Of a stretch of DNA of 64,000 bases, positions 1,312 through 18,705 are shown one piece after another. Both the position numbers and the translations under genes were made by a program. The stretch lies in NCBI RefSeq assembly GCF_017351175.1, contig NZ_JAFMPN010000004.1, positions 62,001 through 126,000 of the forward strand, read 5' to 3'. Origin of the DNA: Desulfovibrio sp. Huiquan2017. GTDB lineage: Bacteria > Desulfobacterota > Desulfovibrionia > Desulfovibrionales > Desulfovibrionaceae. Position 1 is the stretch's first letter, and each line of letters opens with the position of its first letter. Below the pieces are notes generated by a model. It saw only the letters and a program-made list of their open reading frames with translations, was not told the DNA's origin and searched no databases.

Positions 1312-2103
1312 ATGAGAATGCCCATGCGATTTCTCTTCAAAATACTCCAACTTTCCTTCCTCTTGCTGCTCGTCGAGAGCGCGGGCTCTCCCGGCCTGGC
1401 CGCCGAACTGCCCAAGACCGCCGAACTGGTCATGTTCATCGCCCACGCGGATGTGCCGCCCTATTACCTGAACACCGCCCAGGCGCGAGGCAACGGCATC
1501 CTCATGGACGTGCTCCGGGCCGTGGTCAAACCGCTGGGCTACACGGCCACTCCCCGGCTGTTGCCCGACAGACGCGGCTGGCGCATGCTTGAACACGGCG
1601 GCGTGGACATCTACGCCACGGCAAAGGAATGGGTCGCCGCTCCGGAACGCTTCCTGTGGACGGACGCCTTCATGCCCAACGAGGACGTGCTCCTCTATCC
1701 CGCGACGAGCACCCTGCGCTACACCGGGCCGAAATCCCTGTACGGCAAGACCGTGGCGGGCATCCGGGGATTCTTCTATCCCGCCCTGGCAGGACACTTC
1801 GGTCCAGGCGGGATCACGAGGCTGGACACCACCTCGCCCCAGGCCCTGCTCGAACTCCTGCGGCTGGGACGGGCGGACGCCGCTCTGGTCAACCGTACGG
1901 AAATACTGTGGATGTTCCGCAACCTCCCGAATCTGCAACCGACCCTTTTCCGCATTGATGAAACCCCCGTGGGCACGGCGGAATTCCGCTTCCTCTTTCC
2001 CAGGGGGCGGGGATGGGAGCCCTTCATCGACCTGTTCAACGGCCGCCTCCGGGAGATGAAGCGGGACGGCAGCCTCAAGGCCATACTCGACCTCTACCGT
2101 TAA
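1312..2103 (+). CDS. Periplasmic solute-binding protein, family 3 type
   Basis: This 263-residue protein has an N-terminal signal peptide (basic MRMPMRFLFK, then a leucine-rich core, probable cleavage after GLAA near residue 32). The mature part has SBP_bac_3 features: an aromatic VPPYYLN segment, a GILMDVLRAV helix, a GGVDIYATAK segment and a C-terminal MKRDGSLKAI helix typical of family 3 binding proteins. It begins 2 bases after the preceding gene. No ABC permease or ATPase is in view; the neighbours are OPT-like proteins, so it may feed a distant permease or act as a sensor. In-frame ATGs at 1318 and 1324 are alternative starts. Confidence 0.72.
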   Translation: MRMPMRFLFKILQLSFLLLLVESAGSPGLAAELPKTAELVMFIAHADVPPYYLNTAQARGNGILMDVLRAVVKPLGYTATPRLLPDRRGWRMLEHGGVDIYATAKEWVAAPERFLWTDAFMPNEDVLLYPATSTLRYTGPKSLYGKTVAGIRGFFYPALAGHFGPGGITRLDTTSPQALLELLRLGRADAALVNRTEILWMFRNLPNLQPTLFRIDETPVGTAEFRFLFPRGRGWEPFIDLFNGRLREMKRDGSLKAILDLYR

Positions 2104-2127
2104 GCCGGATCAGCCGGAGCGAAACCT

Positions 2128-4083
2128 ATGTACGACGACAAGGAACTGCAAGAATACCGGAACCTGATGCAGCCGCCGGAGAAGTTCGAGGAGGGCTTCG
2201 ACTGGAAGGCCATCGTGGGCGCCATATTCATCGGCTTCTTGATGATGCCCGGTTCCATGTACCTCCAGTTGGTCATTGGCCAGGGCATCGGCCCGGCCGC
2301 CCGATGGGTGACCATCATCCTCTTCGCCGAGATCGCCAAGCGCTCCTATACCCACCTGAAGGAACAGGAAATATTCCTGCTCTACTACATGGCGGGCGCG
2401 GCCCTGGCCTCGCCTTTCCAAGGGCTGCTCTGGAACCAGTACCTGGTCCAGTCCGACGCGGCGCGCATGCTCGGCCTGACCGAGTTCATCCCCCACTGGG
2501 TGGCCCCGGCCCTGGGCTCCGGCTCCTATCTGGAGCGGACCTTCCTGCACCGCGACTGGCTCATCCCCATTCTGCTGCTCATCGGCGCGCAACTGGTCCA
2601 GCGAATCGACCATTTCGGCCTGGGCTACTCGCTCTACCGCATCACCTCGGACGTGGAGAAACTGCCCTTCCCCATGGCCCCGGTGGGGGCGCTGGGCACC
2701 ATGGCCCTGGCCGAATCCACCGAGGACAGGAAAACCGGCTGGAAGTGGCGTGTCTTCTCCATCGGCGGGGTCATCGGCCTGGCCTTCGGCTTTTTCTATG
2801 TGCTCCTGCCCGCCCTGTCCGGGCTGCTCTTCACCGAGCCCATCCGGCTTATCCCCATCCCGTGGATCGAGCTGACCCGGCACACCGAGGACGTCCTGCC
2901 CGCCGTGGCCACGGGCATCCAGTTCGACCTCGGCCTGGTCTTTATCGGCATGGTCCTGCCGTTCTGGGCAGTCATCGGCGGCCTGCTCGGGCTGATCGTG
3001 ACCATCGTGGCCAATCCGATCCTCTACGCCCACGGCATCCTGCACCGCTGGCATCCGGGCATGGCCACGGTGGAGACGGTCTTCGCCAACAATTTCGATT
3101 TCTACATGAGCTTCGGCATCGGACTGGGGCTGGCCATCGGCGCGGTGGGCGTCTACCATGTGGTCCGGTCCTTCAAGAGTTCGAGCGGCGGCCTGGATTT
3201 CTCGGCCCTGTTCAACCCGCCCCAGGGACGCGGCGACATCAACTTCTGGGTGTCCATCGGCATCTACGTCTTCTCCACGCTGTGCTACATCGCCTTTTGC
3301 CTCTGGCTGGTGCCCAGCTTCCCGTGGATCTTCTTCGTCCTCTATGGCTTCATCTACACTCCGGTCATCTCCTACATCTCGGCGCGCATGGAGGGCGTGG
3401 CCGGACAGTTCGTGGCCCTGCCCATGGTCCGCGAGTTCTCGTTCATCGCCGGGGCCAAGTTCTTCGGCTATCACGGGCTCGAAATCTGGTACGCGCCCAT
3501 CCCGTTCCACAACTACGGCGAGGCCACGGTCCAGTTCCGCCAGATCGAGCTGACCGGCACGTCCCTGCGCGGGATCATCAAGGCGGAAATCCTGGTCTTC
3601 CCCATCGTCATGGTATCCTCCCTGCTCTTCTCCCAGTTCCTCTGGCAGCTCGCGCCCATCCCCTCGCCCGAGTATCCATTCGCCCAGGAGCTGTGGCACC
3701 TCCAGGCCCTGAACACCCTGCTCCTGCAAACCTCCACCCTGGACGGCAACTCCCTGTTCTTCGAGGCCCTGTCCGGCCCGGTGGTCCTGTCCGGCCTGGG
3801 GCTCGGGCTGATCCTCTACTCGGTGCTCAACGTGCTCGGCCTGCCCGTGCTCCTGGTCTACGGCGTGGTCCGGGGACTGGGCCAGTCCACGCCCCACGGC
3901 ATGCTCCTCGAAGTGATCGGCGCCCTGCTCGGCCGCTTCTATTTCCTCAAAAAGTACGGCACCAAATGGCGCCACTACGCCCCGGTCCTGCTGGCGGGCT
4001 TCTCCTGCGGCATGGGGTTGACCGGCATGTTCGCCATGGGATGCACGTTGATCATGAAGTCGCTCGGCCGACTGGCCTACTAA
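2128..4083 (+). CDS. OPT-like peptide-transporter-type membrane protein
   Basis: A 651-residue integral membrane protein with a short cytosolic N-terminus (about 30 residues, acidic and basic mixed) followed by a dozen or more hydrophobic segments spread over the rest. It resembles proteins labelled peptide transporter or OPT-like in Desulfovibrio-type genomes; this is family memory and the substrate is unproven. It follows the solute-binding protein by 24 bases and is probably cotranscribed with it and with the upstream membrane protein. The next gene, 240 bases on, is a sigma-54 activator, so the trio may belong to the same regulon as the minus-strand oxidation operon. Confidence 0.62.
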   Translation: MYDDKELQEYRNLMQPPEKFEEGFDWKAIVGAIFIGFLMMPGSMYLQLVIGQGIGPAARWVTIILFAEIAKRSYTHLKEQEIFLLYYMAGAALASPFQGLLWNQYLVQSDAARMLGLTEFIPHWVAPALGSGSYLERTFLHRDWLIPILLLIGAQLVQRIDHFGLGYSLYRITSDVEKLPFPMAPVGALGTMALAESTEDRKTGWKWRVFSIGGVIGLAFGFFYVLLPALSGLLFTEPIRLIPIPWIELTRHTEDVLPAVATGIQFDLGLVFIGMVLPFWAVIGGLLGLIVTIVANPILYAHGILHRWHPGMATVETVFANNFDFYMSFGIGLGLAIGAVGVYHVVRSFKSSSGGLDFSALFNPPQGRGDINFWVSIGIYVFSTLCYIAFCLWLVPSFPWIFFVLYGFIYTPVISYISARMEGVAGQFVALPMVREFSFIAGAKFFGYHGLEIWYAPIPFHNYGEATVQFRQIELTGTSLRGIIKAEILVFPIVMVSSLLFSQFLWQLAPIPSPEYPFAQELWHLQALNTLLLQTSTLDGNSLFFEALSGPVVLSGLGLGLILYSVLNVLGLPVLLVYGVVRGLGQSTPHGMLLEVIGALLGRFYFLKKYGTKWRHYAPVLLAGFSCGMGLTGMFAMGCTLIMKSLGRLAY

Positions 4084-4325
4084 GACAGTCGCAATATGCT
4101 GTTTTAAATAAGTTTTTTATCTTTTATAGCAAGAATGCCGGACGCATCCCGGCGCGGGTCCGCCGACCGCCGAAACAACTGTTGCCAAACCATGCGTTTA
4201 TACCATGGGCATTGAATCGGCGGACGTTTTCCTGTAACATCCCTTCGACTCCATGGCGGTGTAATACGGCTCGTCCAAATCCTTGCAAAAGGACGTGCGA
4301 CGGGCTGCAAGGAGGGAACCCATCC

Positions 4326-6263
4326 GTGAGACACAGAGCATTACTTATTTCGACTTCCGAGACCCTGAGCCGGGAGGCCGCAAGGGTCGCCAAGGGCCTC
4401 GGACTGCAATTGGACATCCGCAAGGGGGGCCTGCTGACCGACGGCCACCTGTACGCGCTGGAACACCAGAGCGAATACGACGTCTTCCTTTCTCAGGGCG
4501 GAACCGCCCTGCTCATGGAAGAGATGTTGTCCAAGCCGGTCATCTCCATCACCATCTCGGTGGTGGACTACGTCCAGGCCCTGAACAAGGCCAAGAGCTA
4601 CGGCCACAAGGTGGCCCTGGTCAGCTACGACTGTCCCTTGCTCAAGGAACTGGAGAGCCTGGCCAAGTTGACCCCGGATTTCGACTTCAGCGTCTTCTCC
4701 TATTCCAACAAGGACGACTTCCAGGAGCAGATCAACAAGGTCTTTTCCCTGAAGGACCACACGGTCATCGGCCTGGGCGGGTGTACCTGCGACCACGTCC
4801 AGAAGCACGGCGTGGACTACGTCATGATCAAGTCCTCCCGCGAGAACGTCCGCAGCGCACTCATAGCGGCCAAGAACATCATCGACCTGAACTACAAGGA
4901 GCGGCTGACCGCCAACCGGGTGACCAACATCCTGAACTATTCCAGCGAGGGCATCTTCTGCGTGGACAAGGACGGCAACATCCCGATCATGAACTTCGCG
5001 GCCGAGCGGATCTTCAACGTCACCCAGGCGGATGTGGTCGGCAAGCCCCTGGCCTCGCCCGAGGTGCCGAGAATCTTCCGCGACATTTACGGAGACGGAA
5101 GTTTTCTGGTCAACGAAACCGTGGTCAGCGGCGAGAGTGCCTTCATGGTCAACCGCATCCAGTTGAGCATCAACCGGCGCATCGAGGAGACCCTGGTCAC
5201 CTTCCAATCCATCTCGGACATCCAATCCCTGGAACGCAAATCGCGCAACGCCCTGCGCAACGCGGGCCTGGTGGCCAAGAAATCTTTTGCCGACATCACC
5301 TACAGCAGCCAGGCCATGCACGAATGCGTGCTCAGGGCCCGGCAGTTCGGCTCCACCGACGCGGCCCTGCTCATCGAGGGCGAGACCGGCACGGGCAAGG
5401 AGCTCTTCGCCCAGGGCATCCACAATTCAAGCCCCCGGAGCAAGGGGCCGTTCGTGGCCGTCAACTGTGCGGCCCTGCCCGAGAGCCTGCTGGAAAGCGA
5501 ACTTTTCGGCTACACCAGCGGGGCCTTCACCGGAGCGCGGAAAGGCGGCAAGGCCGGGCTCTTCGAACTGGCTCACAACGGGACCATCTTCCTGGACGAG
5601 ATCGGCGACATCTCGCCCATGATCCAGAGCCGCCTGCTGCGCGTACTCCAGGAGAAATCCGTGCTCCGCGTGGGTGGAGACCGCATCCTTGACGTGAACA
5701 CGCGCATTGTGGCCGCCACGAACAAGGACCTGCTCGGCATGGTCGAAAAAGGCGACTTCCGCAGCGACCTCTACTACCGGCTCAACCTGCTCAATCTGAA
5801 CATCGCCCCGCTCAGGGAGCGGCCCGAGGACATCGAGACCCTGGTCTGCTACTTCCTGGCCACCAAGGGGTCCATGTACGGCCTTGAGCCCGGCAAACGG
5901 CTATCCGCCCGCACCCTGGACATGATGCGCGAGTACGACTGGCCGGGCAACGTCCGCGAACTGGAAAACTTCATGGAAAAATTGCTCATCCTCCAGCCCC
6001 TCGAAAGCAACCTGGACTATGCGGCCATGAAGCTGCTGGCCGAACGCACGCACCGGAGCCGGGGATGCGCCGACCCGGCCGGGCAGGACGACGCCCCGGG
6101 TATGCTGACCATCCACGTGAGTTCCCTCAAGGACATGGAAAACGAAATCTTCAACAAGATGCTGGACCGCATGGGCGGCAACCAGACCCGGGTGGCCCGC
6201 CGCCTGGGCGTCAGCCGGGTGACCGTCTGGAAACGGCTCCAGGATAATCAGGTCCGCCAATAG
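4326..6263 (+). CDS. Sigma-54-dependent activator with PrpR-type N-terminal sensor and PAS domain
   Basis: The 645-residue protein starts at GTG 4326, chosen because AAGGAGGG lies 9 bases upstream. Order of domains: PrpR_N-like ligand-sensing region (about 1-190), PAS (about 200-300), sigma-54 AAA+ domain (about 320-555) and a Fis-type helix-turn-helix (about 605-640, TRVARRLGVSRVTVWKRL). The Walker A GETGTGKE covers residues 352-359 and GAFTGA, the sigma-54 contact loop, covers 399-404; a GTIFLDEIGD Walker B follows. PrpR_N domains sense small acids or acyl-CoA-type metabolites. It is convergent with the symporter-oxidoreductase-ptb-buk operon, whose promoter carries a consensus -24/-12 element, making that operon the obvious target. 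Confidence 0.9.
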   Translation: MRHRALLISTSETLSREAARVAKGLGLQLDIRKGGLLTDGHLYALEHQSEYDVFLSQGGTALLMEEMLSKPVISITISVVDYVQALNKAKSYGHKVALVSYDCPLLKELESLAKLTPDFDFSVFSYSNKDDFQEQINKVFSLKDHTVIGLGGCTCDHVQKHGVDYVMIKSSRENVRSALIAAKNIIDLNYKERLTANRVTNILNYSSEGIFCVDKDGNIPIMNFAAERIFNVTQADVVGKPLASPEVPRIFRDIYGDGSFLVNETVVSGESAFMVNRIQLSINRRIEETLVTFQSISDIQSLERKSRNALRNAGLVAKKSFADITYSSQAMHECVLRARQFGSTDAALLIEGETGTGKELFAQGIHNSSPRSKGPFVAVNCAALPESLLESELFGYTSGAFTGARKGGKAGLFELAHNGTIFLDEIGDISPMIQSRLLRVLQEKSVLRVGGDRILDVNTRIVAATNKDLLGMVEKGDFRSDLYYRLNLLNLNIAPLRERPEDIETLVCYFLATKGSMYGLEPGKRLSARTLDMMREYDWPGNVRELENFMEKLLILQPLESNLDYAAMKLLAERTHRSRGCADPAGQDDAPGMLTIHVSSLKDMENEIFNKMLDRMGGNQTRVARRLGVSRVTVWKRLQDNQVRQ

Positions 6264-6458: not shown

Positions 6459-7544
6459 TCAATCGGACAGGGTGAATTTGTGGGCCTCCTCCTGGCCGCG
6501 CAGGACTCTGAGCGCTCCCAGGGCCAGGGCCTGCAACTCGTCTTCGCCGGGCTCGATGAAGATCGGCCCCAGGAAGGCGATACGCTCCCTGATCCATCCG
6601 GTCAGCCGTTCGGAGTAGGCCACCGCGCCGGTGATGACCACTCCGTCCAGGCCGCCGTGCAGCACGGTGGCCAGCCCGCCGATGGTCTTGGCCGTCTGGT
6701 AGGCCATGCCCTCGTAGACCAGCGCGGCCTCGGCGTCGCCCGCATCGATGCGGCGCTCCACCTCGATGGCGTTGTTCGTGCCCAGGTAGGCGACCAGGCC
6801 GCCCTTGCCCCGCGTCCGGCGGGTCAGGGATAACCTGTCGAACTCGCCGGAAAAGGCGCTGTCTATGAGCTGACGCACGGGCAGTCCGCCGGACCGCTCG
6901 GGCGAATACGGGCCTTCTTCGTCGGTGACCACGTCGATCATCCGCCCATTCTTGAGCACGCAGGCGCTGATGCCGCCACCCATGTGGCAGACCACGAAGG
7001 AGCACTGCTCGAAGGACTTGCCCTCGCGCTCGGCCACGCGCCGGGCCACGGCGCGCATGTTCAACACATGGCAGGAGGCCCGCCGCTTCATCTCGGGCAG
7101 GCCGCTCAGGCGGGCGATGTCCTCAAGCTGGTCCACGACCACGGCGTCGTAGATGTACGCCGGAATCCCCTGAGCCTGGGCGATGTCGTAGGCGAGCATG
7201 CCCCCCAGGTTGGAGGCGTGGTCGTCGATGGGACGGTCGCGCAGGAATTCAAACATCTCGCGGTTGACCTCGTAGGCCCCCTGGCGGAGGGGAGGCAGCT
7301 TGCCGCCCCGGCCGGACACGGCGCTCAGGGACGCAAGGTCCACGCCGTTGTCGGCCAAGCACTTGAGGATGGCCTCGCGGCGCATGGGGAACTGCTCGGT
7401 CATGCTGTTGGTGAACCGGGCCAGCTCTTCGGCCGGATGATCGACCTTGTGCTCGAAGCGCAGCCTGTCGTTGTCGAAGACCGCGATCTTGGTGGAGGTC
7501 GATCCAGGATTGATGGTCAGTATGGCATATGAATCTTGAGACAC
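6459..7544 (-). CDS. buk: Butyrate kinase (branched-chain acyl kinase)
   Basis: A 361-residue ASKHA-fold kinase converting butyryl- or isobutyryl-phosphate plus ADP to the acid plus ATP. The N-terminal LTINPGSTSTKIAVF is the nucleotide-binding phosphate-1 signature of acetate/butyrate kinases. CHMGGGISACVLKNG and GGLATVLHGGLDGVVITG are the other conserved blocks. Length matches Buk (about 355) rather than acetate kinase (about 400). It is the last gene of the operon, 19 bases after phosphate butyryltransferase, which supplies its acyl-phosphate. Chain-length preference (butyryl, isobutyryl, other) cannot be read from sequence. Confidence 0.9.
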   Translation of the reverse strand: MSQDSYAILTINPGSTSTKIAVFDNDRLRFEHKVDHPAEELARFTNSMTEQFPMRREAILKCLADNGVDLASLSAVSGRGGKLPPLRQGAYEVNREMFEFLRDRPIDDHASNLGGMLAYDIAQAQGIPAYIYDAVVVDQLEDIARLSGLPEMKRRASCHVLNMRAVARRVAEREGKSFEQCSFVVCHMGGGISACVLKNGRMIDVVTDEEGPYSPERSGGLPVRQLIDSAFSGEFDRLSLTRRTRGKGGLVAYLGTNNAIEVERRIDAGDAEAALVYEGMAYQTAKTIGGLATVLHGGLDGVVITGAVAYSERLTGWIRERIAFLGPIFIEPGEDELQALALGALRVLRGQEEAHKFTLSD

Positions 7545-7563: not shown

Positions 7564-8481
7564 TTAGTTGTCGCCGAGGGTCGCGGACGCGGCCAGGACC
7601 AGGGGCCAGTACTTGTCCTGGGTGGCCGCCGCCCGCGAAGTCAGCACGATGGGGCCGCGCCCGCCGATGACGATGCCCGCGCTGCGGGAATGCCCGGCAT
7701 AACGCAGGGCCTTGATGAGCACGTTGGCCGCGTTGATGTCCGGGCAGGCCAAAAGGTCGGCGTCGCCCTGGATGGGGCTGTCGAACCTTTTGATCTTCGC
7801 GGACTCGGGGCTCATGGCCAGATCATAGGAAATGGGGCCCTCGACCACGCAGTCGCCCAGTTCGCCGGCCGCTCCGGCCTTCTTGATCTCCACGGCGTCC
7901 ATGGTGGCCTGCATCTTGGGGTTGGGAACTTCGGTGGAGGCCAGCACGGCCACCTTGGGGGAGACGAAGCCCATGGCCTTCATGGTGGCCACCGCGTTGC
8001 GGATGATCCCCTTCTTCTGCTCCACGTCCGGGCTGATGTTGATGGCCGCGTCGGTCAGGCCGAAGAGCTTCGGATGATCGGGCAGTTCGATGACGCTCAA
8101 GTGGGAAATGAGATTCCCGGTACGAAATTCCGCTTCCTTGCTGAACAGGGCCTTGAGCATGTTCCCGGTGGGGATGTTGCCCTTCATCAGGAAATCGGCC
8201 CGGCCCGATGCCAGGGATTGTCCCGCCAGGACTGCGGCTTCTTCCGGGGAGGCGGCATGCTCGATGGCGAAGTCCGCCGGGGACAGGCCGAGAAGTTCCA
8301 GTTGCTCGGCGATGACGTCCTTGTCGCCGAACAGTACCGGGGTGATCAGCCCGTCTTCCCGGGCGTCGCGCACGGCTTCGAGCACATGACTCTCGGTGGC
8401 GTTGATCACGGACACCGTCCGCGCGCCCCGGCCGCTGTTGCGCACCTTGTCGGCCAGTTGTTCCAGGGTGGTGTATGACAT
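7564..8481 (-). CDS. ptb: Phosphate butyryltransferase
   Basis: A 305-residue phosphate acyltransferase of the PTA/PTB family converting acyl-CoA plus phosphate to acyl-phosphate plus CoA. I use the ATG at 8481 (MSYTTLEQLADKV) rather than an in-frame ATG 33 bases upstream, because GAGG precedes it at good spacing and family members begin here. C-terminal segments DLLACPDINAANVLIKALRY and VIGGRGPIVLTSRAA are family hallmarks. Length fits Ptb (about 300). It links the acyl-CoA made by the upstream oxidoreductase to buk. Confidence 0.88.
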   Translation of the reverse strand: MSYTTLEQLADKVRNSGRGARTVSVINATESHVLEAVRDAREDGLITPVLFGDKDVIAEQLELLGLSPADFAIEHAASPEEAAVLAGQSLASGRADFLMKGNIPTGNMLKALFSKEAEFRTGNLISHLSVIELPDHPKLFGLTDAAINISPDVEQKKGIIRNAVATMKAMGFVSPKVAVLASTEVPNPKMQATMDAVEIKKAGAAGELGDCVVEGPISYDLAMSPESAKIKRFDSPIQGDADLLACPDINAANVLIKALRYAGHSRSAGIVIGGRGPIVLTSRAAATQDKYWPLVLAASATLGDN

Positions 8482-8551
8482 GAATTCCTCGTGATATGGA
8501 TCCCGGGGCCCCATGCGGCGGGGCCCCGGAAGACGGCTCGGCCGTCGGTTG

Positions 8552-8785
8552 CTATGCTTCTTCGGACAGGGACAGGGCCAGGTCCGGGCAGACCATGACG
8601 CAACTGTTGCAGCCGATGCACCGGTCCAGGTGCTTGGGCGAGGACACGACGTATCCGGCCGCGTTGAGCTTGCCCTCGAACTCGAAGACGTCCTTGGGGC
8701 AGGTTTCCTTACAGTAGCCGCACCCCTTGCAGCGCTCTTCCACGATGGTGATCTTGAACTTCTTCTTGGCTTCTTCCATGGTCAT
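8552..8785 (-). CDS. 2-oxoacid:ferredoxin oxidoreductase, delta (2x[4Fe-4S] ferredoxin) subunit
   Basis: A 77-residue protein with two 4Fe-4S motifs, CKGCGYCKETCP and CIGCNSCVMVCP, typical of the delta/ferredoxin subunit of KOR/VOR enzymes. It carries electrons from the TPP-binding subunit to soluble ferredoxin. Its ATG overlaps the stop of the gamma subunit by one base (TAATG), implying translational coupling. Gene order alpha-beta-gamma-delta is preserved across the cluster. Confidence 0.88.
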   Translation of the reverse strand: MTMEEAKKKFKITIVEERCKGCGYCKETCPKDVFEFEGKLNAAGYVVSSPKHLDRCIGCNSCVMVCPDLALSLSEEA

Positions 8786-9318
8786 TACCTCGTCTGGGAA
8801 GCCGCTTCGGCCAGGGCGATGCCCTTTTTCACGGCTTCGATGTTCATTTCAGCGATCTTGGGGGCGAATTTCTTGGTGGCCGCCGCGACGATGCTGTCGA
8901 AGTCCACGAACGGATGGAGCTGGTAGGCCGCGCCCAGCGCCACGAGGTTGGCCGACTTGGGCGCGCCCATGTCCTGAGCCGTCTTGGTGCAGGGGATGCC
9001 CAGCCAGTTGTCGAAGGTCCGTTCGGCCATGATGCTGGAGTCGTAGACCACGGGCACGGAAGCATTGTCGTAGCGGCCGCCGACCACGTCGTGCAGGGCC
9101 ACGATCACGTTGGGGCTCAGGACCTGCTGGAACAGGATCTCGTCCGGGGCGATGATCGCCTCGGCGGAGATGAAGCCGCCGCGCTGGGCGATGCCGTAGG
9201 TCTGGGTCTGGACCACGTTCAGGCCCTCGGCGATGGCGCATTCGGCCAGGAAGGAGGCCACGAAGATGAGCCCCTGTCCGCCGGTACCCGCCATGATGAT
9301 TTCGGAGTGTTTCGTCAT
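8785..9318 (-). CDS. 2-oxoacid:ferredoxin oxidoreductase, gamma subunit
   Basis: A 177-residue POR/KOR gamma domain protein. The MAGTGGQGL motif near the N-terminus is the nucleotide/CoA-binding loop of the family, and TQTYGIAQRGG is equally conserved. The start is taken at MTKHSEI (9318), one base before the end of the beta gene, rather than an upstream in-frame ATG lying inside that gene. It belongs to the four-subunit enzyme encoded by this operon. Confidence 0.88.
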   Translation of the reverse strand: MTKHSEIIMAGTGGQGLIFVASFLAECAIAEGLNVVQTQTYGIAQRGGFISAEAIIAPDEILFQQVLSPNVIVALHDVVGGRYDNASVPVVYDSSIMAERTFDNWLGIPCTKTAQDMGAPKSANLVALGAAYQLHPFVDFDSIVAAATKKFAPKIAEMNIEAVKKGIALAEAASQTR

Positions 9319-9319
9319 G

Positions 9320-10147
9320 TTACTTGCCCTCCTTCTGCTGCAGGCGCTCGCGCATGACTTCATAGCTGGTGTTGAAGTCGGGATCGGTCCGCTCCACGAA
9401 CTTGCCGACCTTGAAGTATCCTTGGGCGGCGGCGTCCTCGATCTTATCGTACCGGGCCTCGGACACCCCCTTCTCCTTGAGCCAGCGGAGCATGTCCACG
9501 GGCTGGCGCATCTTGTTGCGCGGGCCGAAGAGCGTGGTGCACGGGCTGGCCACCTCGATGAGGGAAAAGCCCTTGTTGGCGATGCCTTCCTGGATGCGCT
9601 TGGACAGCCGCGTGCCCTGGGCCACGGTCTCGCGGGCCACGTAATTGGCTCCGGCCACCTTGGCCAGTTCGCAAACGTCCACGCTGCGCTCGGGGTTGCC
9701 GAGCACCGAGGTGCTGGTCACGGCGTCGTGGGGCGTGGTGGCCGAGGCCTGGCCGCCGGTCATGCCGTAGTTGTAGTTGTTCACCAGCACGGCGGTCAGA
9801 TCCATGTTGCGGCGGGCCGCGTGGAGCAGGTGGTTGCCGCCGATGGTCGTGCCGTCGCCGTCGCCCATGAGCACGACCACGGTCAGCTCGGGGTTGGCGC
9901 TCTTCACGCCCGTGGCGTAGGCCAGGGCCCGGCCGTGGGTGGTGTGCAGGGCGTTGCAGGTGAAGTAATCATCCGCCTTGCCCCAGCAGCCGATGCCGCT
10001 GACCATGACGATCTTGCGCGGATCCAGCTCAAGGTTTTCAAGGGCGCAGGCAATGGCCCTGACGACAATGCCGTCGCCGCAACCCGCGCACCACATGTGC
10101 GGCAGGGAGTCGGTCTTTATATAATCCATTCCAGTGGCGTATTTCAT
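9320..10147 (-). CDS. 2-oxoacid:ferredoxin oxidoreductase, beta (TPP-binding) subunit
   Basis: The 275-residue subunit binds thiamine diphosphate, as shown by LPHMWCAGCGDGI at the N-terminus (a cluster/TPP ligand region) and the GDGDGTTIGGNH motif, the GDG-X-N Mg/TPP signature. Sequence style is closest to KorB-type enzymes. It follows the alpha subunit by 10 bases. Together the subunits catalyse 2-oxoacid + CoA + oxidised ferredoxin to acyl-CoA + CO2 + reduced ferredoxin. Which 2-oxoacid (2-oxoglutarate, branched-chain or other) is open; the ptb-buk neighbours favour a monocarboxylic acyl-CoA product. Confidence 0.88.
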   Translation of the reverse strand: MKYATGMDYIKTDSLPHMWCAGCGDGIVVRAIACALENLELDPRKIVMVSGIGCWGKADDYFTCNALHTTHGRALAYATGVKSANPELTVVVLMGDGDGTTIGGNHLLHAARRNMDLTAVLVNNYNYGMTGGQASATTPHDAVTSTSVLGNPERSVDVCELAKVAGANYVARETVAQGTRLSKRIQEGIANKGFSLIEVASPCTTLFGPRNKMRQPVDMLRWLKEKGVSEARYDKIEDAAAQGYFKVGKFVERTDPDFNTSYEVMRERLQQKEGK

Positions 10148-10157
10148 CGTTACTCTC

Positions 10158-11282
10158 CTAGTACAGGGCCTTTTCGATGGCGTCGGGGAACATGATGGTT
10201 CCGTTGTACGAATTGACCGTGCGGACCATGGAGGCGTCGCCGACGACCTTGCGAACCTCGCCGGCCATCTGGCCCGCGTAGTTCATCTCCGGAACGATGA
10301 CGGAACTCGCATTCTGCGCGGCCTTGGCGACGGCCTTGGCCGGGAAGGGCCAGACGGTCTGAAGTTGCAGCACACCGACCTTGACGCCCTTTTCGCGGGC
10401 CTTGGCGGCGGCGGTACGCGCGGCGCGGGTGACCACGCCGTAGGCCACGATGAGGATCTCGCAGCCCTCCACGTCGAACTCCTTGACCATGATCACGTCG
10501 TCGATGTCTTGTTCAAGCTTGGTGTGCAGCTGGGCCACGCGGCGGGCGGCGTTGTCCGGCGTGTTGCAACTGTAGCCGTCCTCGCCGTGCATGGAGCTGG
10601 TGACGTGGAAGATGTAGTCGCTCCCGTAGGCGGCCAGCGGGGCCACCGCACCGGGCTCGAAGCTGAACGGCTTGTAGTCCTTGGGCTCGCCCGCGGGCTT
10701 CACGCGGTCGATAACCTCCAGCTCGCCCGGCTCGGGCAGACGGAAGCTCTCGCGCATGTGTCCGACCACCTCGTCCGGGGCCACGATCACCTGGGTGCGG
10801 TACTTCTCGGCGATGTTGAAGGCCTTGACGGTGAGCTCGAAACACTCGGCCACGGTGGCCGGAATCAGGGCGACGACGCTCTGGTCGCCGTGGCGGCCCC
10901 AGCGCAACTGCATCATGTCGGACTGGGCCGGGCGGGTGGCCAGGCCGGTGCTCGGGCCGGATCGCTGGACATTGACCACGACCAGCGGCACTTCGCCCAT
11001 GGTGGCCATGCCGAGGTTCTCCTGCATGAGCGAGAAACCGGGGCCGCTGGTGGCGGTGAAGGCCTTGGCGCCGGACAGGGATGCGCCGATGATGGCGCCC
11101 ATGCTGGCCAGCTCATCCTCCATCTGCATGTAGACGCCGCCGAGCTTGGGCATCTCGCTGGCCGCGATCTGCGCGATTTCCGACGAAGGCGTGATGGGAT
11201 AGCCGGCATAGAACCGCGCCCCGGCGTAGAAAGCGCCCTGGGCGATGGCGGCGTTGCCTTGGATCAATTTGGCTGTACTCAT
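10158..11282 (-). CDS. 2-oxoacid:ferredoxin oxidoreductase, alpha subunit (KorA-type)
   Basis: A 374-residue alpha subunit carrying pyrimidine-binding and domain II regions. The segments FYAGYPITPSSEIAQ, YMQMEDELASMGAIIGAS and ATSGPGFSLMQENLG are characteristic of KorA/VorB-type alpha chains; by eye they resemble KorA more than VorB. It lies 20 bases after the DASS symporter and heads the alpha-beta-gamma-delta array. The 2-oxoglutarate label automatic pipelines may give should be treated cautiously, because the operon ends in butyrate-type kinase genes rather than succinyl-CoA synthetase. Confidence 0.88.
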   Translation of the reverse strand: MSTAKLIQGNAAIAQGAFYAGARFYAGYPITPSSEIAQIAASEMPKLGGVYMQMEDELASMGAIIGASLSGAKAFTATSGPGFSLMQENLGMATMGEVPLVVVNVQRSGPSTGLATRPAQSDMMQLRWGRHGDQSVVALIPATVAECFELTVKAFNIAEKYRTQVIVAPDEVVGHMRESFRLPEPGELEVIDRVKPAGEPKDYKPFSFEPGAVAPLAAYGSDYIFHVTSSMHGEDGYSCNTPDNAARRVAQLHTKLEQDIDDVIMVKEFDVEGCEILIVAYGVVTRAARTAAAKAREKGVKVGVLQLQTVWPFPAKAVAKAAQNASSVIVPEMNYAGQMAGEVRKVVGDASMVRTVNSYNGTIMFPDAIEKALY

Positions 11283-11302: not shown

Positions 11303-12727
11303 TTACATTAAGCCGAACATCTTCCAGAAGGGAATGCTGACCAGGAACCCGATGGTGCTGATCACCGTGAAGGCCATGCAGAACTTGGCCATGGGCCAGT
11401 GGTCCGACATTTCGCCGTGCGTGGTGAACTGGGCGCACAGATAAATCGTGTTCATGTATTTGAAGAAGAAGACGTTGGCGGCCGTGAAGGCGACGAAGAT
11501 GACGATCCAGGGGTTGATGCCCGCGGCCAGGACCGACGGCATCATGACGATGGCCACGATGATGGAACCCGACGTCATGTTTGTTATCAGGAACCGGATC
11601 AGGACGATGACCACGACGATGGATATGATCATGACGGGCACGGAACTCATGACCATGCCCATGATCGGCTTGAGCGCGTCGGACAACCAGGTGTCGATGC
11701 TCAGGGCCTTGACGACCTTGGCCATGTTGAAGACGCAACCGATAAGGAAGATGGCGGGCCATTCGATGCGGGTCTTGAAGTCTTCCTTGGTCATGGTCTT
11801 CACGCCCAGCAGCACGCACATGGCGATGACCGCGATGACCGCGCCCGAGACGTGATGCAGGAAGCTGGTCATCCAGCCGAGCAGCGCGCAGAGAATGACG
11901 GCCAGGACGATCTTCTCGTCCCGGGTCATGGGCCCGATCTTGTCAAGCTCCCTGCGGCCGTATCCCTTGGGCAGCGTCAGCGGCTCCTTGGGCGCATAGG
12001 CCCAGAAGATGTACAGCGCCAACCCCGTAAAGGCGACCACGCCCCAGGGCAGGGCCCACAGGAACCAATCGAACCAGGAAACATTCTTGTACTGTTCGGG
12101 CAGGATCGAGATCAGCATGTAATGGCTGAACGAGCCGGACAGGAAGATGTGGCCCATGAGCACGAATCCGGTGTAGCAGGCCGCGAGCAACCCCGAGGCG
12201 GCCGGGCTCTTGCGTTCCGCCCCCAGGGAGTCGCTGATGGCCAGGGCCAGCGGCGCGGACAGGGCGGACTTGGCGTTCATGCTCGGCACCAGCGGACTGA
12301 TGATCGTACCCGCGCCCATGAGGCCCAGGACCTGGCCGCGGAAGGTGGCCGGGAACAAGGTCAGGACATACAGGGAAATCCGCCGCAACAGGCCGGTCCG
12401 ACCGGCCACGGCACCCAATGCGAAGGCGCCGACCATCATCCACCAACCCGTGCCCGCGAAGGTCGAGAAGGCCACGTTGAACTTGACGCTGTGAGTCGCG
12501 GCCCACAGGGTACACATCAAAATACCCGTCACGTACTCCGGCACGATCTGGCATATCCACCAACCCACGGCGAAGACGAGCACGCCGATGGCGCGCATCG
12601 CCTCGGGCGTCAAGCCGTCGGGCGGGGTTGTCAGGGCGATGGCCACCCCGGCGAAGATCGAAAGAATGGCGACGGCGTACTTGAGATAAGCGACCCAGCC
12701 GTCACCGGCGTTCTGTTTACACTCCAT
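11303..12727 (-). CDS. DASS-family (SLC13/CitT-type) sodium:anion symporter
   Basis: A 474-residue membrane protein with about 11-12 hydrophobic segments. I start at ATG 12727 because TAGGAGGTG stands 6 bases upstream; an in-frame ATG 21 bases earlier would bury that site. DASS proteins import di- or tricarboxylates, and some carry other organic anions, with Na+. As first gene behind the sigma-54 promoter it presumably imports the substrate, or a precursor, of the downstream 2-oxoacid oxidoreductase. The anion cannot be named from sequence. Confidence 0.82.
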   Translation of the reverse strand: MECKQNAGDGWVAYLKYAVAILSIFAGVAIALTTPPDGLTPEAMRAIGVLVFAVGWWICQIVPEYVTGILMCTLWAATHSVKFNVAFSTFAGTGWWMMVGAFALGAVAGRTGLLRRISLYVLTLFPATFRGQVLGLMGAGTIISPLVPSMNAKSALSAPLALAISDSLGAERKSPAASGLLAACYTGFVLMGHIFLSGSFSHYMLISILPEQYKNVSWFDWFLWALPWGVVAFTGLALYIFWAYAPKEPLTLPKGYGRRELDKIGPMTRDEKIVLAVILCALLGWMTSFLHHVSGAVIAVIAMCVLLGVKTMTKEDFKTRIEWPAIFLIGCVFNMAKVVKALSIDTWLSDALKPIMGMVMSSVPVMIISIVVVIVLIRFLITNMTSGSIIVAIVMMPSVLAAGINPWIVIFVAFTAANVFFFKYMNTIYLCAQFTTHGEMSDHWPMAKFCMAFTVISTIGFLVSIPFWKMFGLM

Positions 12728-12895
12728 GCTGCACCTCCTACAATGCAAGAGAGCGGTCCGTTGAACCCGAATTGATGCCGCCGGTCGTCCTTCGGGACGG
12801 AGGGGACGGCACGCAGACTCTTACCATTGATGCTCCCTCAGGCGGCCGGTTCAGGTTCAGGGCAGACCGGACGTCGTTGTGAAGCACCCTTCAAT

Positions 12896-12911
12896 AGCAA
12901 CCACCGTGCCA
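12896..12911 (-). promoter_or_regulatory. Sigma-54 (-24/-12) promoter of the symporter-KOR-ptb-buk operon
   Basis: On the minus strand the bases read TGGCACG, four bases, TTGCT, matching the full sigma-54 consensus including the invariant GG and GC pairs 10 bases apart. Transcription would begin near 12884, giving a leader of about 157 bases before the symporter start. Confidence 0.85.
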
Positions 12912-12925
12912 CAAAACCGGCCGAT

Positions 12926-12938
12926 GAATGACTTGATA
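12926..12938 (-). promoter_or_regulatory. Probable IHF site between enhancer and promoter
   Basis: GAATGACTTGATA on the plus strand is the reverse complement of an IHF core (WATCAA, four bases, TTR) with one deviation at the last position. It sits in AT-rich DNA about 15 bases upstream of the -24 element, the usual place for IHF at sigma-54 promoters. Confidence 0.45.
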
Positions 12939-13003
12939 ACATGCTGTAATATTGTTTATTTTTTACTGCGAATTCCAGACCTCTCCACGGTCGGCGCACA
13001 GCC

Positions 13004-13045
13004 TGTTAAGATGTTAAGCACTGTTCACTTTCTTAACTGTTCACT
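13004..13045 (-). promoter_or_regulatory. Repeat cluster, candidate enhancer for the sigma-54 activator
   Basis: Two copies of TGTTAAG (13004, 13012) are followed by two copies of ACTGTTCACT (13020, 13036), with a CTTAAC (13032) that mirrors TGTTAAG. The cluster lies about 120-160 bases upstream of the predicted start site, the normal range for an enhancer-binding protein. Confidence 0.5.
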
Positions 13046-13227
13046 GTGTGTACGGTGGGCCGGATCGAAAGCGGGCCAGTGTGGACACAAAGAGGCCGGG
13101 CGGCCATCTTGACCCACTGCCCCGGAGATTGGCATCGGCGTCCGGACGGAGGGGCTCCGGGGGAACCGGTCCGCCGACCCGAGGCTTTCCATTTGCAACA
13201 CCCGCGCTCCGGCCATCCCTTCCCGAC

Positions 13228-13259
13228 AAAAAAAGCCGGAACGACGGTCGTTCCGGCTT
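13228..13259 (-). terminator. Rho-independent terminator after the glcF-like gene
   Basis: A stem of AAGCCGGAACG pairing with CGTTCCGGCTT (13233-13243 with 13249-13259) precedes a run of seven T on the minus strand. It separates the glcD/glcF transcript from the sigma-54 operon downstream. Confidence 0.85.
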
Positions 13260-13305: not shown

Positions 13306-14580
13306 TTATCGCAGGGGCGGGCCGTAGGCCTCGGCCAAGAGCTGGGCGGTATGCACCACCCGGATGGCCGCTCCATGGCGGGCCAGGCCGTCGGCGATGT
13401 GCATCATGCAGGCCGGGCATCCCATGGCCACGGTGGAGGCCCCGGAATCAATGATGTTGCGGATCTTGTCGTCGTTGATGCGACGGGACAGCTCGTAATT
13501 CTCCACACTGAAGGTGCCGCCGCAGCCGCAGCAACTCCCGGCATCGCGCATTTCCACCAGTTCGACGCCGGGCAGCTCGGCCAACAGCTCCCTCGGCTCG
13601 GCCTTGGCCTTCATGCTCCGGACCATGTGGCAGGAGTCGTGGTAGGTCACGGTGCGTTCGCGGGCGACCATGTTCCGGTGCAGGCCGGTCTCGGCCAGGT
13701 ACCGGGAGAAGTCGATGACGTTGTCCCGGAATCCTTCCCAGGTCCGGCGCGCCTCGCTGGACAAGGGCAGCAGTTCGTAGCGCTCCCGCAGGGCCGATCC
13801 GCAGGTGGGACAGGCGGTGATGATGGCGTCGTATTTCCGTTCGCCCAGCGCCTTGATGACCCGCTCGGCCAGCAGGGTCGCGGTGTCGAAATCGCCGTTC
13901 ACCAGCATGGGCGTGCCGCAGCAGCCCATGTCATCGGGCATGGACACCCGCACGTTGTTGGCGCGCAGGGTCTCGACCACGGCGGCCCCGGCCTCGGGGT
14001 AGACGTAGCTGAGCATGCAGCCCGGAAAGAAGGCCACATGGGCCCGGGGATGTCCGAGGCCGTCCCGGTGCGGGACCAGGCTGCGCAGGGGGCGCACGCC
14101 GAGCTTGGGAACCACCCGGCGGACGTCGAGACCGGCGGCCGGGATGGGCAATCGGGGCTCCATGCCCTGGCCGTTCCCCGCGTCACGGAACAGGACCTTC
14201 TGGAACAGACCGCCCGCGCGCATGGCCAGGTCGAAAAGGCGCCTGTAGGTACGCCCGGTGAAGGCCAGACGCTTGAGCTTGGGCAGCGGGACTTCGGTGC
14301 CGATCTCGTGCCGGAGCATGATGAACAGGTCCGTGGTCTTCACGCCCGAGGGACACCGCTCGGAGCAGGCGTCGCAAAGCAGGCACTGGTTCACCAGGCG
14401 GGACAGCTCCCCGCCCGCGTCCAGGCGGGATTCGCCCAAGGCGCGGATCATCTGCAACTTGCCGCGTGAGCTGGTGGCCTCGCTGTGCAGCCGCCGGGTC
14501 ACCGGACAGACGACCAGACAGGAGCCGCAGCGGGTACATTTGGCCGCGCGGGCCTTGAGTTCTTCGGACAGGCTAGTCAT
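13306..14580 (-). CDS. GlcF-like Fe-S subunit of a 2-hydroxyacid dehydrogenase
   Basis: A 424-residue Fe-S oxidoreductase. The N-terminal half has two 4Fe-4S motifs (CTRCGSCLVVCP and CLLCDACSERCP) and the C-terminal half has two cysteine-rich CCG domains (FPGCMLS...MGCCG and YHDSCHM...GSCCGCGG), the heterodisulfide-reductase-type fold. This is the layout of glycolate oxidase GlcF and of lactate dehydrogenase partners in sulfate reducers. Its start overlaps the end of the FAD subunit by 8 bases. It likely passes electrons from the flavoprotein toward the quinone pool or soluble carriers. Confidence 0.85.
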   Translation of the reverse strand: MTSLSEELKARAAKCTRCGSCLVVCPVTRRLHSEATSSRGKLQMIRALGESRLDAGGELSRLVNQCLLCDACSERCPSGVKTTDLFIMLRHEIGTEVPLPKLKRLAFTGRTYRRLFDLAMRAGGLFQKVLFRDAGNGQGMEPRLPIPAAGLDVRRVVPKLGVRPLRSLVPHRDGLGHPRAHVAFFPGCMLSYVYPEAGAAVVETLRANNVRVSMPDDMGCCGTPMLVNGDFDTATLLAERVIKALGERKYDAIITACPTCGSALRERYELLPLSSEARRTWEGFRDNVIDFSRYLAETGLHRNMVARERTVTYHDSCHMVRSMKAKAEPRELLAELPGVELVEMRDAGSCCGCGGTFSVENYELSRRINDDKIRNIIDSGASTVAMGCPACMMHIADGLARHGAAIRVVHTAQLLAEAYGPPLR

Positions 14581-15967
14581 GATCCGACTCCCCGAAGATG
14601 CAACCGGGATTCATGATCAGATTGGGGTCCAGGGCCTTCTTGACGGCCCACATGGCGTCCACTTGGGCCCGGCCCAGTTGCCTGACCAGGTACGGGGCCT
14701 TTTCCCGACCCACGCCGTGCTCGGCGGACACGGTGCCGCCGATGGAAATGATGTATTCGTGGAACTCGGTCCGGGCCTGGGCGGCCAGGGCCTTCTGCTC
14801 GTCGTTGTCGAAAAAGAAATGGGGATGCACGTTGCCGTCCCCGGCATGGCCCTGACAGCCTACCTTGAGGCCGTATTTTTCGCCCAGCCCGTGCAGGGTC
14901 CCGACCACGTCCGCCAGGCGGTCGATGGGGGCCGCCGGGTCGCCGCCCAGCCGTCCCTTGGCCACCCGGGCCAGGGCCGGGAGCGCGGCGCGGCGGGCCA
15001 GCCAGATGGCTTCGGCCTCTTCCTCGTTGGCCGCAGCCCGAAACTCGATCATGCCCAGTTCGGAACAGATGGACCGAACGCGGCCTATCTTGGCCGGGAT
15101 CGAACTCGCCTCGCCGTCCAGTTCGATGAGCAGCATGGCCGCCGCATCCACGGGCAGCCCGGCATGGGTGTAGGCTTCCACGGCCTCGATGAAGGTCTTT
15201 TCCATGAACTCCATGACCGACGGGACCACCCCGCCGTGCATGATGCGCACCACGGCCGTGGCCGCGTTCTCCAGGTCGTCGAAGGCCACCAGCAGGGCCG
15301 TCCGGGCCTCGGGCTGGGGAATGAGCTTGAGGATGGCCTTGGTGACCACGCCCAGGGTGCCCTCGGCCCCGGTGAAAAGCTGGGTCAGGTTGTACCCGGT
15401 GACATCCTTGATGCACTTGCCGCCGGTGTGGATGATCTCGCCGTTGGGCAGGACCACCTCCAGGCCCGAGACGTAGCTCTTGGTCGTGCCGTATTTGACG
15501 CACTGCAACCCGCCGGCGTCGGTGGACACGTTGCCGCCGATGGAGGTGAAGGTGAAGCTGGCCGGGTCGGGCGGATAGAACAACCCGTGCTTGGCCGCCT
15601 CGGCCTTGATGTCCGAGGTAATGGCCCCGGCCTGGGCCGTGCAGGTCATGCTGCCCGGATCCACGACGATCTCGTTCATGGCCTGCATACAGATGACGAT
15701 GGACTCGTCCCGTTCGGGGATGACGTTGACGCTCAGGCCGGACCCCTGTCCACGCACCAGGACGGGCAGCCGGTTTTCGTTGGCGAACCGGACCACGGCG
15801 GAAACCTGCTCCGTGTTTTCCGGGATGACCGCCGCCGCGGGCAATACGGCCGACGGAGCCGCGCCCCCCGCGTTGTAGGTGTAACCGATGAGATCTTCCT
15901 TGCCGGTGAGAATATTGTCTGGGCCGACCACCTTGGTCAGGGCGTCCACAAGAAAATCGTGATCCAT
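14573..15967 (-). CDS. GlcD-like FAD-binding 2-hydroxyacid (D-lactate/glycolate) dehydrogenase
   Basis: A 464-residue flavoprotein of the GlcD/Dld-II family (FAD_binding_4 plus FAD-oxidase C). Seen directly: the PVLVRGQGSGLSVNVIP FAD loop, the PPDPASFTFTSIGGNVSTDAGG segment (cited in part), GCQGHAGDGNVHPHFF and the terminal PGCIF. AGGAGG lies 6 bases upstream of the ATG. The enzyme oxidises a 2-hydroxyacid to a 2-oxoacid. Its position upstream of the 2-oxoacid oxidoreductase operon suggests it feeds that enzyme, much as GlcD-type genes accompany the lactate operon in Desulfovibrio vulgaris. The true substrate may be lactate, glycolate or a longer 2-hydroxyacid. Confidence 0.82.
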   Translation of the reverse strand: MDHDFLVDALTKVVGPDNILTGKEDLIGYTYNAGGAAPSAVLPAAAVIPENTEQVSAVVRFANENRLPVLVRGQGSGLSVNVIPERDESIVICMQAMNEIVVDPGSMTCTAQAGAITSDIKAEAAKHGLFYPPDPASFTFTSIGGNVSTDAGGLQCVKYGTTKSYVSGLEVVLPNGEIIHTGGKCIKDVTGYNLTQLFTGAEGTLGVVTKAILKLIPQPEARTALLVAFDDLENAATAVVRIMHGGVVPSVMEFMEKTFIEAVEAYTHAGLPVDAAAMLLIELDGEASSIPAKIGRVRSICSELGMIEFRAAANEEEAEAIWLARRAALPALARVAKGRLGGDPAAPIDRLADVVGTLHGLGEKYGLKVGCQGHAGDGNVHPHFFFDNDEQKALAAQARTEFHEYIISIGGTVSAEHGVGREKAPYLVRQLGRAQVDAMWAVKKALDPNLIMNPGCIFGESDHD

Positions 15968-16581
15968 AACCGCCTCCTGTTCAGTTCAGATTGCCTGCCC
16001 GCACGGGTCCGGCGGCGCTCGGGCCGAACGCCTGAAGGCGAAACGGTCCGCCGCCGGGGCAACGGCACATGGGCCGTCTCCCCGGCGGGATGGCGCTGTC
16101 GGCCGAGGCCTTCTCCGCAACAAGAAGACCCCGCCGCGCTCCGGCAGGATGACCCGGCCCATTTCAGGCCGCGTCGGGCATCGCTCCTTCCGGAACCTCA
16201 GCCCATAGGAGCAAACGTCATGCCGGGACGCGGCAGCCGGATATGCGGCAGCCAACAATCCGAAATTGAAGAGAAATTCGTTTCGCCCTTGTTGTTCGGC
16301 CCATGTTCTCGGCCGAAAACGCGTTCATATTTTTTACGCTGTTTCGATTCTTAACCCACGTCCGGTTACGGGAAGGAAAACGGCAGATCCCGAGAGGAAC
16401 GGCACCCGCGCGGACGGCTTGGTGAAGACGACGATCCGAAGCCCCCCGCTTTGTCCGCCTCATCCGGCAGGCATAGCAATACAAGTCGACGCCATTTTGC
16501 AAAGGGGCCTTGTTCTTTCCCCGGCGAGCGGGTAATTTATGCCCGGCATAACGGTACATGGAACCCAATATGGAGAACAGA
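15968..16581. other. Intergenic region between divergent glcD-like gene and glmU
   Basis: About 600 bases with no gene I can support. It is GC-rich from 15990 to 16260 with several short hairpins, then AT-richer from 16260 to 16350. It must contain the promoters of both flanking genes, but no strong -35/-10 pair stands out (a weak TTGTTC, 17 bases, TAATTT at 16510-16538 precedes glmU). Confidence 0.5.
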
Positions 16582-18494: not shown

Positions 18495-18532
18495 TTGGAC
18501 GGGGCCGAGGTCGGCAAGGAATTACCCTGGGA

Positions 18533-18705
18533 CGTGCGTGATTGCCCGGAGTGTTATTGAGCCAATGCTCTTATATGGGGCGACGACTCCAGTGCGCTGG
18601 TGCGCAGGCCCGGTTCAGCCGGGAAGCCTGAAGGCGCGCGAGTCATGCCCACCTGGACATGCCAGGTTCAAAACATACAGGCAACACGGCTTCCCGGGGA
18701 TTTAA
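18533..18705 (+). ncRNA. ssrS: 6S RNA
   Basis: Directly downstream of zapA there is a long bulged-hairpin region. The terminal stem pairs CCCGG-GUGUU near 18545 with AACAC-CCGGG near 18682-18698. The inner part contains GGUUCAGCCGGGAAGCCU, as at the core of E. coli 6S RNA, and a CCACCUGGACAUGCCAGGUU hairpin followed by CAGGCAACACGGC. Length (about 170) and locus fit 6S RNA, which binds sigma-70 RNA polymerase. The ends are approximate. TTGGAC at 18495 may be its -35 box. A further hairpin at 18709-18743 may end the transcript. Confidence 0.8.

Follow-up and report, generated by a model that had tools for sequence, protein, structure and literature searches.

A predicted sigma-54 regulon with paired palindromic sites for a PrpR_N-type activator at two promoters of an organic acid pathway

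Closest described systems and the genes of the locus

Among the described systems closest to the locus studied here is the LurR/lactate operon DVU3025-3033 of the sulfate reducer Desulfovibrio vulgaris, which encodes a permease, a GlcD/iron-sulfur 2-hydroxyacid dehydrogenase, a 2-oxoacid:ferredoxin oxidoreductase, a phosphotransacylase and a kinase behind a sigma-54 promoter, with several upstream sites of the adjoining enhancer-binding protein (PMC6456213, PMC4481167). As these papers describe it, LurR belongs to the two-component response regulators and has sites of 16 bp, for example GTCCGCTTTTCAAGAC, and its operon encodes a lactate permease, POR, Pta and Ack (PMC6456213, PMC4481167), whereas a one-component PrpR_N activator, the motif TGTTAA-N5-TTAACA and DASS, KOR, Ptb and Buk are found here. 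For this reason, classification as a LurR-type lactate operon was discarded. Another relevant system is that of BkdR, a SigL (sigma-54) activator of Bacillus subtilis whose ptb-bcd-buk-lpdV-bkd cluster includes ptb and buk and deals with isoleucine/valine 2-oxoacids (PMC2743287). The locus was also rejected as a BkdR-bkd regulon because it carries KOR subunits in place of the lipoyl branched-chain dehydrogenase genes. In B. subtilis the bkd pathway relies on a lipoyl branched-chain dehydrogenase instead of KOR and is not known to include a DASS symporter, and BkdR is not known to have a PrpR_N domain.

At protein level, the two best NCBIfam models for the activator were those of PrpR (propionate) and PrdR (proline), which share with it the AAA+ domain with GAFTGA and the Fis HTH and, in the case of PrpR, also PrpR_N. 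PrdR sites belong to the TGT-N10-12-ACA class (PMC6615313), as do the sites described here. Unlike these regulators, the activator scored well under the curated cut-offs, both for PrpR of propionate catabolism (TIGR02329, 368.8 bits versus 499.2) and for PrdR (NF041552, 364.1 bits versus 795), and its adjoining genes belong to another pathway. A search of the literature, covering mainly the main texts of open-access papers, gave no account of the regulon, nor of such a motif in connection with a PrpR_N activator, and the D. vulgaris sigma-54 regulome paper contains neither "PrpR" nor "butyr" as a term in its main text. The kind of switch is already known (compare LurR and BkdR), and this predicted regulon is a well-supported new example of it.

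The window, that is, the whole stretch of 64 kb that was analysed, contains the following genes and a terminator between the two operons:

4326-6263, plus strand: enhancer-binding protein with PrpR_N, PAS, AAA+ with GAFTGA and Fis-type HTH_8 (domain search, alignment of 11 orthologues)
6459-7544, minus strand: butyrate kinase, buk (TIGR02707 above cut-off)
7564-8514, minus strand: phosphotransbutyrylase-like phosphate acyltransferase, ptb (PF01515)
8785-9363, minus strand: 2-oxoacid oxidoreductase gamma, korC (PF01558)
9320-10147, minus strand: 2-oxoacid oxidoreductase beta, korB (Pfam match; NCBIfam below cut-offs)
10158-11282, minus strand: 2-oxoacid:acceptor oxidoreductase alpha, korA (NF006412 above cut-off)
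11303-12727, minus strand: DASS-family (sodium-coupled anion) symporter, sym, operon gene 1 (Pfam PF00939)
13233-13259, minus strand: intrinsic terminator 3' of glcF, dividing the two operons (13-bp perfect arms)
13306-14580, minus strand: GlcF-like iron-sulfur (CCG) subunit of a 2-hydroxyacid dehydrogenase (adjoins kor or buk of the system in 6 relatives)
14573-15967, minus strand: GlcD-like FAD subunit of a 2-hydroxyacid dehydrogenase (51-66% identity to system-adjoining GlcD in 6 relatives)

The best NCBIfam models of the symporter (TIGR00785) and of ptb (phosphate butyryltransferase) scored below their cut-offs. Operon gene 1 most likely starts at ATG 12727, with AGGAGGTG upstream, rather than at TTG 12748 of the listed frame. 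The 270-bp gap between korC and ptb (8514-8785) is far longer than the other gaps of the operon, and the alignment ends suggest a similar gap in relatives. As for intrinsic terminators, one was found against 0.5 expected by shuffling. Since glcD-glcF are located upstream of korA in five relatives (G102, G040, G154, G176 and G068) and downstream of buk in G240, the glcDF genes of the window probably belong to the same system. The enzymes suggest a conversion of a 2-hydroxyacid into a 2-oxoacid (GlcDF), an acyl-CoA (KOR), an acyl phosphate (Ptb) and finally an acid plus ATP (Buk). The dsrA of the genome scored above cut-off and, as a consequence, the organism is most likely a sulfate reducer, in which these genes would represent a likely 2-hydroxyacid pathway with ATP gain.

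The activator and its linkage to the pathway genes

As originally predicted, a PrpR-type activator with an intact GAFTGA is convergent with the operon, ending at 6263 and facing buk (6459). Its open frame (2013-6263, plus strand, 1416 aa) is far longer than the protein, and the first 771 codons contain no Pfam/NCBIfam family; the start is most likely GTG 4326, which has AGGAGGG upstream. PrpR_N, a sigma-54 AAA+ domain with GAFTGA and a Fis-type HTH, by which NtrC/PrpR-type activators are recognised, are all present. In the alignment of the 11 activators, the GAFTGA motif, Walker A and B and the recognition helix are all kept, the last in the form SR-T-WK in 11/11.

Activator orthologues (E <= 1e-120) were detected in 11 of 288 genomes of the family, including that of the window (10 of 287 others), and a class-wide search gave 11 of 348 genomes, identical to those of the family. 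Of the 44 genera of the family, 3 contain carriers, and the genome of the window is the only carrier of its genus. Genes of the same pathway adjoin the activator in all 10 other carriers; in G199, where the contig measures just 4.6 kb, these are buk and a portion of ptb. The activator is divergent from sym in G024 and G240 and from glcD in G102, and in the other seven carriers it lies behind buk or sym in the same direction. Furthermore, a symporter of at least 50% identity was present in 7 of 199 genomes (own included), which are exactly the 7 activator carriers of that set, the next-best match having 27% identity. Scanning the own genome with the symporter gave one distant locus (34% identity), of no use for promoter comparison. 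The genome search found the activator as the sole PrpR_N protein. Both this result and the presence of the orthologue beside these genes in 10/10 other carriers support the originally proposed binding of this activator to the repeats upstream of the symporter.

Two sigma-54 promoters and their upstream palindromes

The -24/-12 elements of the two operons are:

12897-12911, minus strand: sigma-54 element TGGCACGGTGGTTGC of the symporter-KOR-ptb-buk promoter (0 mismatches to TGGCAC-N5-TTGC)
16211-16225, minus strand: second, weaker element CGGCATGACGTTTGC before glcD-glcF (one mismatch to TGGCAYN5YTGC)

The complete consensus previously noted before the symporter operon was confirmed, being the only perfect TGGCAC-N5-TTGC match of the window in a pattern scan. 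One-mismatch matches amounted to 4 in the window against 5.7 expected, so only the perfect match is meaningful alone. Genome-wide, the perfect pattern occurred 18 times versus 3 for the reversed pattern used as control. RpoN is encoded in the genome, and resembling elements precede sym, korA or glcD in relatives. In terms of the -24 GG and -12 GC that define a sigma-54 promoter, the sym element is perfect and that of glcD has one mismatch to the relaxed form and two to TGGCACN5TTGC, being non-significant alone; in five relatives glcD carries a TGGCATGAN3CTGC element 215-226 bp before its start. From the usual -12 to +1 distance, the transcript of the symporter operon is predicted to start near 12885. 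For glcD-glcF, a start near 16199 is expected. The repeat pair TGTGAAGCACCCTTCA (12878-12893) versus 13012-13027 was set aside as it lies at this predicted start and outside the learned sites.

The repeat cluster at 13004-13045 was found exactly where it had been placed, with TGTTAAG at 13004 and 13012 and ACTGTTCACT at 13020 and 13036 (window letters). These are short as plain repeats, and their weight derives from the comparison with relatives. Read at sequence level, they are overlapping half-sites of a 17-bp palindrome, TGTTAA-N5-TTAACA. The supposed binding unit has to be revised, as it would consist of two 17-bp palindromes, not of two kinds of direct repeat. The putative upstream activating sites (UAS), scored in both promoters with a motif trained without the window, are:

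13004-13020, no strand: putative UAS palindrome A1 TGTTAAGATGTTAAGCA (12.1 bits, rank 4 of 64 kb)
13022-13038, no strand: putative UAS palindrome A2 TGTTCACTTTCTTAACT (13.7 bits, rank 2 of 64 kb)
13038-13054, no strand: possible weak third site TGTTCACTGTGTGTACG (6.0 bits; non-significant alone)
16322-16338, no strand: putative UAS palindrome B1 CGTTCATATTTTTTACG (15.6 bits, rank 1 of 64 kb)
16340-16356, no strand: putative UAS palindrome B2 TGTTTCGATTCTTAACC (12.9 bits, rank 3 of 64 kb)

A2 is a perfect GTTMA-N5-TKAAC. The internal spacing is 18 bp in both pairs and the distances to the -24 are nearly equal, the centres of A1 and A2 lying 101 and 119 bp upstream of that of the symporter and those of B1 and B2 105 and 123 bp upstream of that of glcD. 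In relatives, the spacing was 21 bp in 8 of the 10 promoters with a pair, and 20 and 24 bp in the other two. A conserved palindromic site about 100 bp upstream, as looked for in a sigma-54 UAS, is present, and it is weak in two relatives. The original prediction considered a single target operon; its symporter promoter stands, and the unit is larger, since the glcD-glcF promoter with its matching site pair is a well-supported predicted second target that had been missed.

For the motif analysis, promoters preceded by a -24/-12-like element were collected in 10 genomes, 19 in all, two of the window and 17 of nine relatives (G024 1, G102 3, G213 1, G210 1, G240 1, G040 3, G154 2, G176 3 and G068 2). 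Their elements differ from TGGCACN5TTGC by no more than one mismatch, except for the glcD of relatives (TGGCATN5CTGC, two mismatches) and that of the window. Left out were sym of G154 (no element at the cut-off applied), G199 (no operon start on its 4.6-kb contig), glcD of G240 (in the same direction behind buk, with only two-mismatch elements) and sym of G068, whose one-mismatch element TGGCGCCTCTTTTGC, 83 bp before the start, is placed unlike that of its sisters and which has no UAS within 600 bp. Many of the promoters come from close relatives and hence are non-independent, 6 of the 19 being kor and glcD of three close relatives.

Enumeration of dyads (15,360 palindromic patterns of five-letter words, spacers 0-14, at most 2 mismatches) in 12 representative promoters, including the two of the window, gave TGTTAA-N5-TTAACA as the top motif, corresponding to the two best dyads, with z of 8.0-8.5 versus a maximum of 4.07 in 60 dinucleotide-shuffled sets. 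As a few unrelated dyads also exceeded that maximum (z up to 5.2), this null is lenient. GTTAA-N5-TTAAC was present in 11 of the 12 promoters against 1.1 expected. Palindromic expectation-maximisation was started from random positions in the 17 promoters of the relatives and arrived at tGTTaAnaatnTtAACa. Applied to the 64 kb, this window-free motif placed its best four sites at the two promoters (12.1-15.6 bits), the next site reaching 8.6, and in this way it fell exactly on the repeat cluster, which also supports the proposed binding by the activator. In 200 order-2 Markov windows, sites of at least 12 bits averaged 0.08, with a maximum of 1 per window and a top score anywhere of 17.5.

These data bear on the possibility that the sigma-54 promoter is real but the repeats upstream of it are due to chance or to A/T-rich low-complexity DNA, which we consider hardly credible. 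Matches of 8-9 of 12 consensus letters do occur at 12 of 17 control promoters (the other perfect sigma-54 promoters of the own genome), and counting letters separated the system poorly from them (best 8-11/12 versus 6-9/12), so it was abandoned in favour of the trained matrix. Against a chance origin stand the ranking of these four sites as the top of the 64 kb and the strict spacer of 5, the same word at the other 14 spacers reaching 0-5 promoters. In addition, when order-1 Markov DNA of local composition was generated 5000 times for each promoter, 0.3% (sym) and 0.6% (glcD) of the trials had a site of at least 12 bits, and two such sites at a distance of 15-25 bp never arose.

The core with at most 2 mismatches was present in 18/19 system promoters versus 1/17 control promoters, and pairs of sites (at least 6 bits, 15-25 bp apart) in 12/19 versus 1/17, being missing from 7/19; both system counts are in-sample for the relatives, only the two promoters of the window having been held out of the motif. 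With sym of G068 included they become 18/20 and 12/20. Two control promoters had a 13.9-bit site and one a 10.0-bit site. The core pattern is un-enriched across the own genome (8 sites versus 10 for the reversed control), and for that reason it was not used to add members to the regulon.

Motifs with TGT/ACA halves (TGT-N11-ACA class) are common to many enhancer-binding proteins (PMC6615313, PMC4641369), so another such protein could bind these sites; the class alone cannot identify the protein, and it is the linkage that does. A different enhancer-binding protein of this class might thus control both promoters while the neighbouring activator acts elsewhere, in line with the site of at least 10 bits at 3 of the 17 other sigma-54 promoters and with the binding sites that LurR and NrfR are described to have in common in D. 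vulgaris (PMC6456213). This explanation seems unlikely in view of the co-occurrence and adjacency of the activator and these genes in 11 genomes, and of the site-bearing intergenic region shared by the divergent activator and sym or glcD in G024, G102 and, weakly, G240. It is also opposed by the sites preceding the activator gene in 6 of the 7 relatives in which this gene is non-divergent.

Sites in relatives and proposed regulation

For leave-out tests, the motif was trained with the tested genome excluded, and G040 and the G154/G176/G068 group were also excluded from each other; when G102, G213, G210 or G240 was tested, promoters of its genus remained in the training set. In G024, G102 and G213, no other site of the retrieved locus outranked those at the promoters. 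The top site of G210 scored 13.0 bits at a distance of 10 bp from the -24, and the next one 12.5 bits at 115 bp. In G154, G176 and G068 (loci L033, L034 and L035) the promoter sites ranked second and third, below a far-upstream palindrome. At the sym locus of G176 (L024) two pre-activator sites ranked first and the promoter site fifth (6.6 bits). For G040, the promoter site at L032 (6.8 bits) ranked second and that at L021 (7.8 bits) fourth, sites before the activator gene and one other outranking the latter, and the best one of G240 was fourth of its locus (5.8 bits). By these ranks, most of the set has a solid motif, and it is poor in G040, G240 and sym of G176. The comparison across related genomes suggested with the original prediction thus revealed palindromes conserved at most of the relatives' promoters and weak in these three cases.

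The far-upstream palindrome of the three close relatives, CGTTAAAA(C/G)TTTTAACG, is perfect and lies about 450-480 bp upstream of the glcD -24 (L033:4071, L034:4848, L035:7803). Elsewhere in the own genome, at L001 (G000:C2:155522), another perfect sigma-54 promoter has TGTTCCATTTTTGAACA centred 174 bp upstream; the gene behind it, whose first residues resemble a lipoyl E2 subunit, is probably the target of another activator.

In 6 of the 7 relatives where the activator gene is non-divergent from the target operon, it is preceded by a site at -73/-74, and four of these six have a second one at -94/-95. UAS-like sites of this kind were observed just before the gene at L021:12299-12336 and L024:5723-5760 (21 bp apart in both) and at L028:8700. 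They may serve autoregulation. In the window, the best site before the activator gene (7.6 bits at -203) is unclaimed, and G210 likewise has none worth claiming. The relatives' sites at -73/-95 lack a clear sigma-54 element and might act in autorepression, and from there it might be argued that a repressor or some unrelated regulator occupies the palindromes, with the sigma-54 promoter driven by an activator bound elsewhere or from solution. We regard this as very improbable, as the best sites at the sym, kor and glcD promoters are mostly 61-125 bp upstream of the -24, a usual location for activator sites (PMC4641369). The symporter of G154 is also against it, lacking both the -24/-12 and the UAS, as is that of G068, which has no UAS, though a one-mismatch -24/-12 is found at another place.

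The symporters of G154 (L022) and G068 (L025) are without UAS while kor and glcD retain theirs, and that of G154 is also without -24/-12. In both genomes the symporter lies behind buk and could be read through.

Altogether, it is very probable, judging from the sequence, that the activator encoded at 4326-6263 acts at the paired palindromes to open both sigma-54 promoters of the organic acid pathway. On the basis of the sequence elements observed, of how they are conserved and spaced, and of the linkage of the genes, we infer that the activator would use PrpR_N (and PAS) to sense a small molecule and would form an AAA+ oligomer, its Fis-type helix-turn-helix binding the paired 17-bp palindromes about 100-125 bp upstream of the two promoters. 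A DNA loop of about 100 bp would let the GAFTGA loop contact sigma-54 RNA polymerase, and ATP-driven opening would follow at the symporter-korABC-ptb-buk and glcD-glcF promoters. With both operons, the cell would take up a 2-hydroxy or 2-oxo acid, convert it oxidatively into the acyl-CoA and gain ATP via acyl phosphate. This predicts a concrete regulon of one activator, two promoters and four sites at base resolution, as well as the motif of a PrpR_N-type activator that does not belong to the propionate system, and this motif could be transferred to relatives. The enzymes do not by themselves disclose the substrate; the inducer of the activator would. A broader reading, to which we give an even chance, is that a ligand-sensing one-component sigma-54 regulon repeats the lactate logic of sulfate reducers for a different 2-hydroxyacid and may have been passed between genera as one unit comprising activator, enzymes and matching sites.

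Between the symporter promoter and its palindromes there is one further element:

12926-12938, minus strand: near-consensus IHF site TATCAAGTCATTC (one mismatch)

This site, of a kind that is optional in sigma-54 promoters with a UAS, had been pointed out before and is indeed present, with one mismatch to the IHF consensus WATCAANNNNTTR. The window contains 10 one-mismatch sites, so about 0.02 would be expected in 130 bp. Conservation did not support it, as one-mismatch matches up to 130 bp upstream of the -24 appeared in 4/18 other promoters, scattered and on either strand. The genome has four HU/IHF-type matches, all of them under the himA cut-off, and of 14 control genomes only 1 exceeds this cut-off; one of the four matches is encoded in the window (44004-44273, minus strand, 77.8 bits with himA, below cut-off). 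Finally, an Rfam scan at the gathering threshold gave no RNA at the leader of either operon and, elsewhere, located only a 6S RNA (RF00013) at 18521-18704 of the window (plus strand, 94.3 bits).
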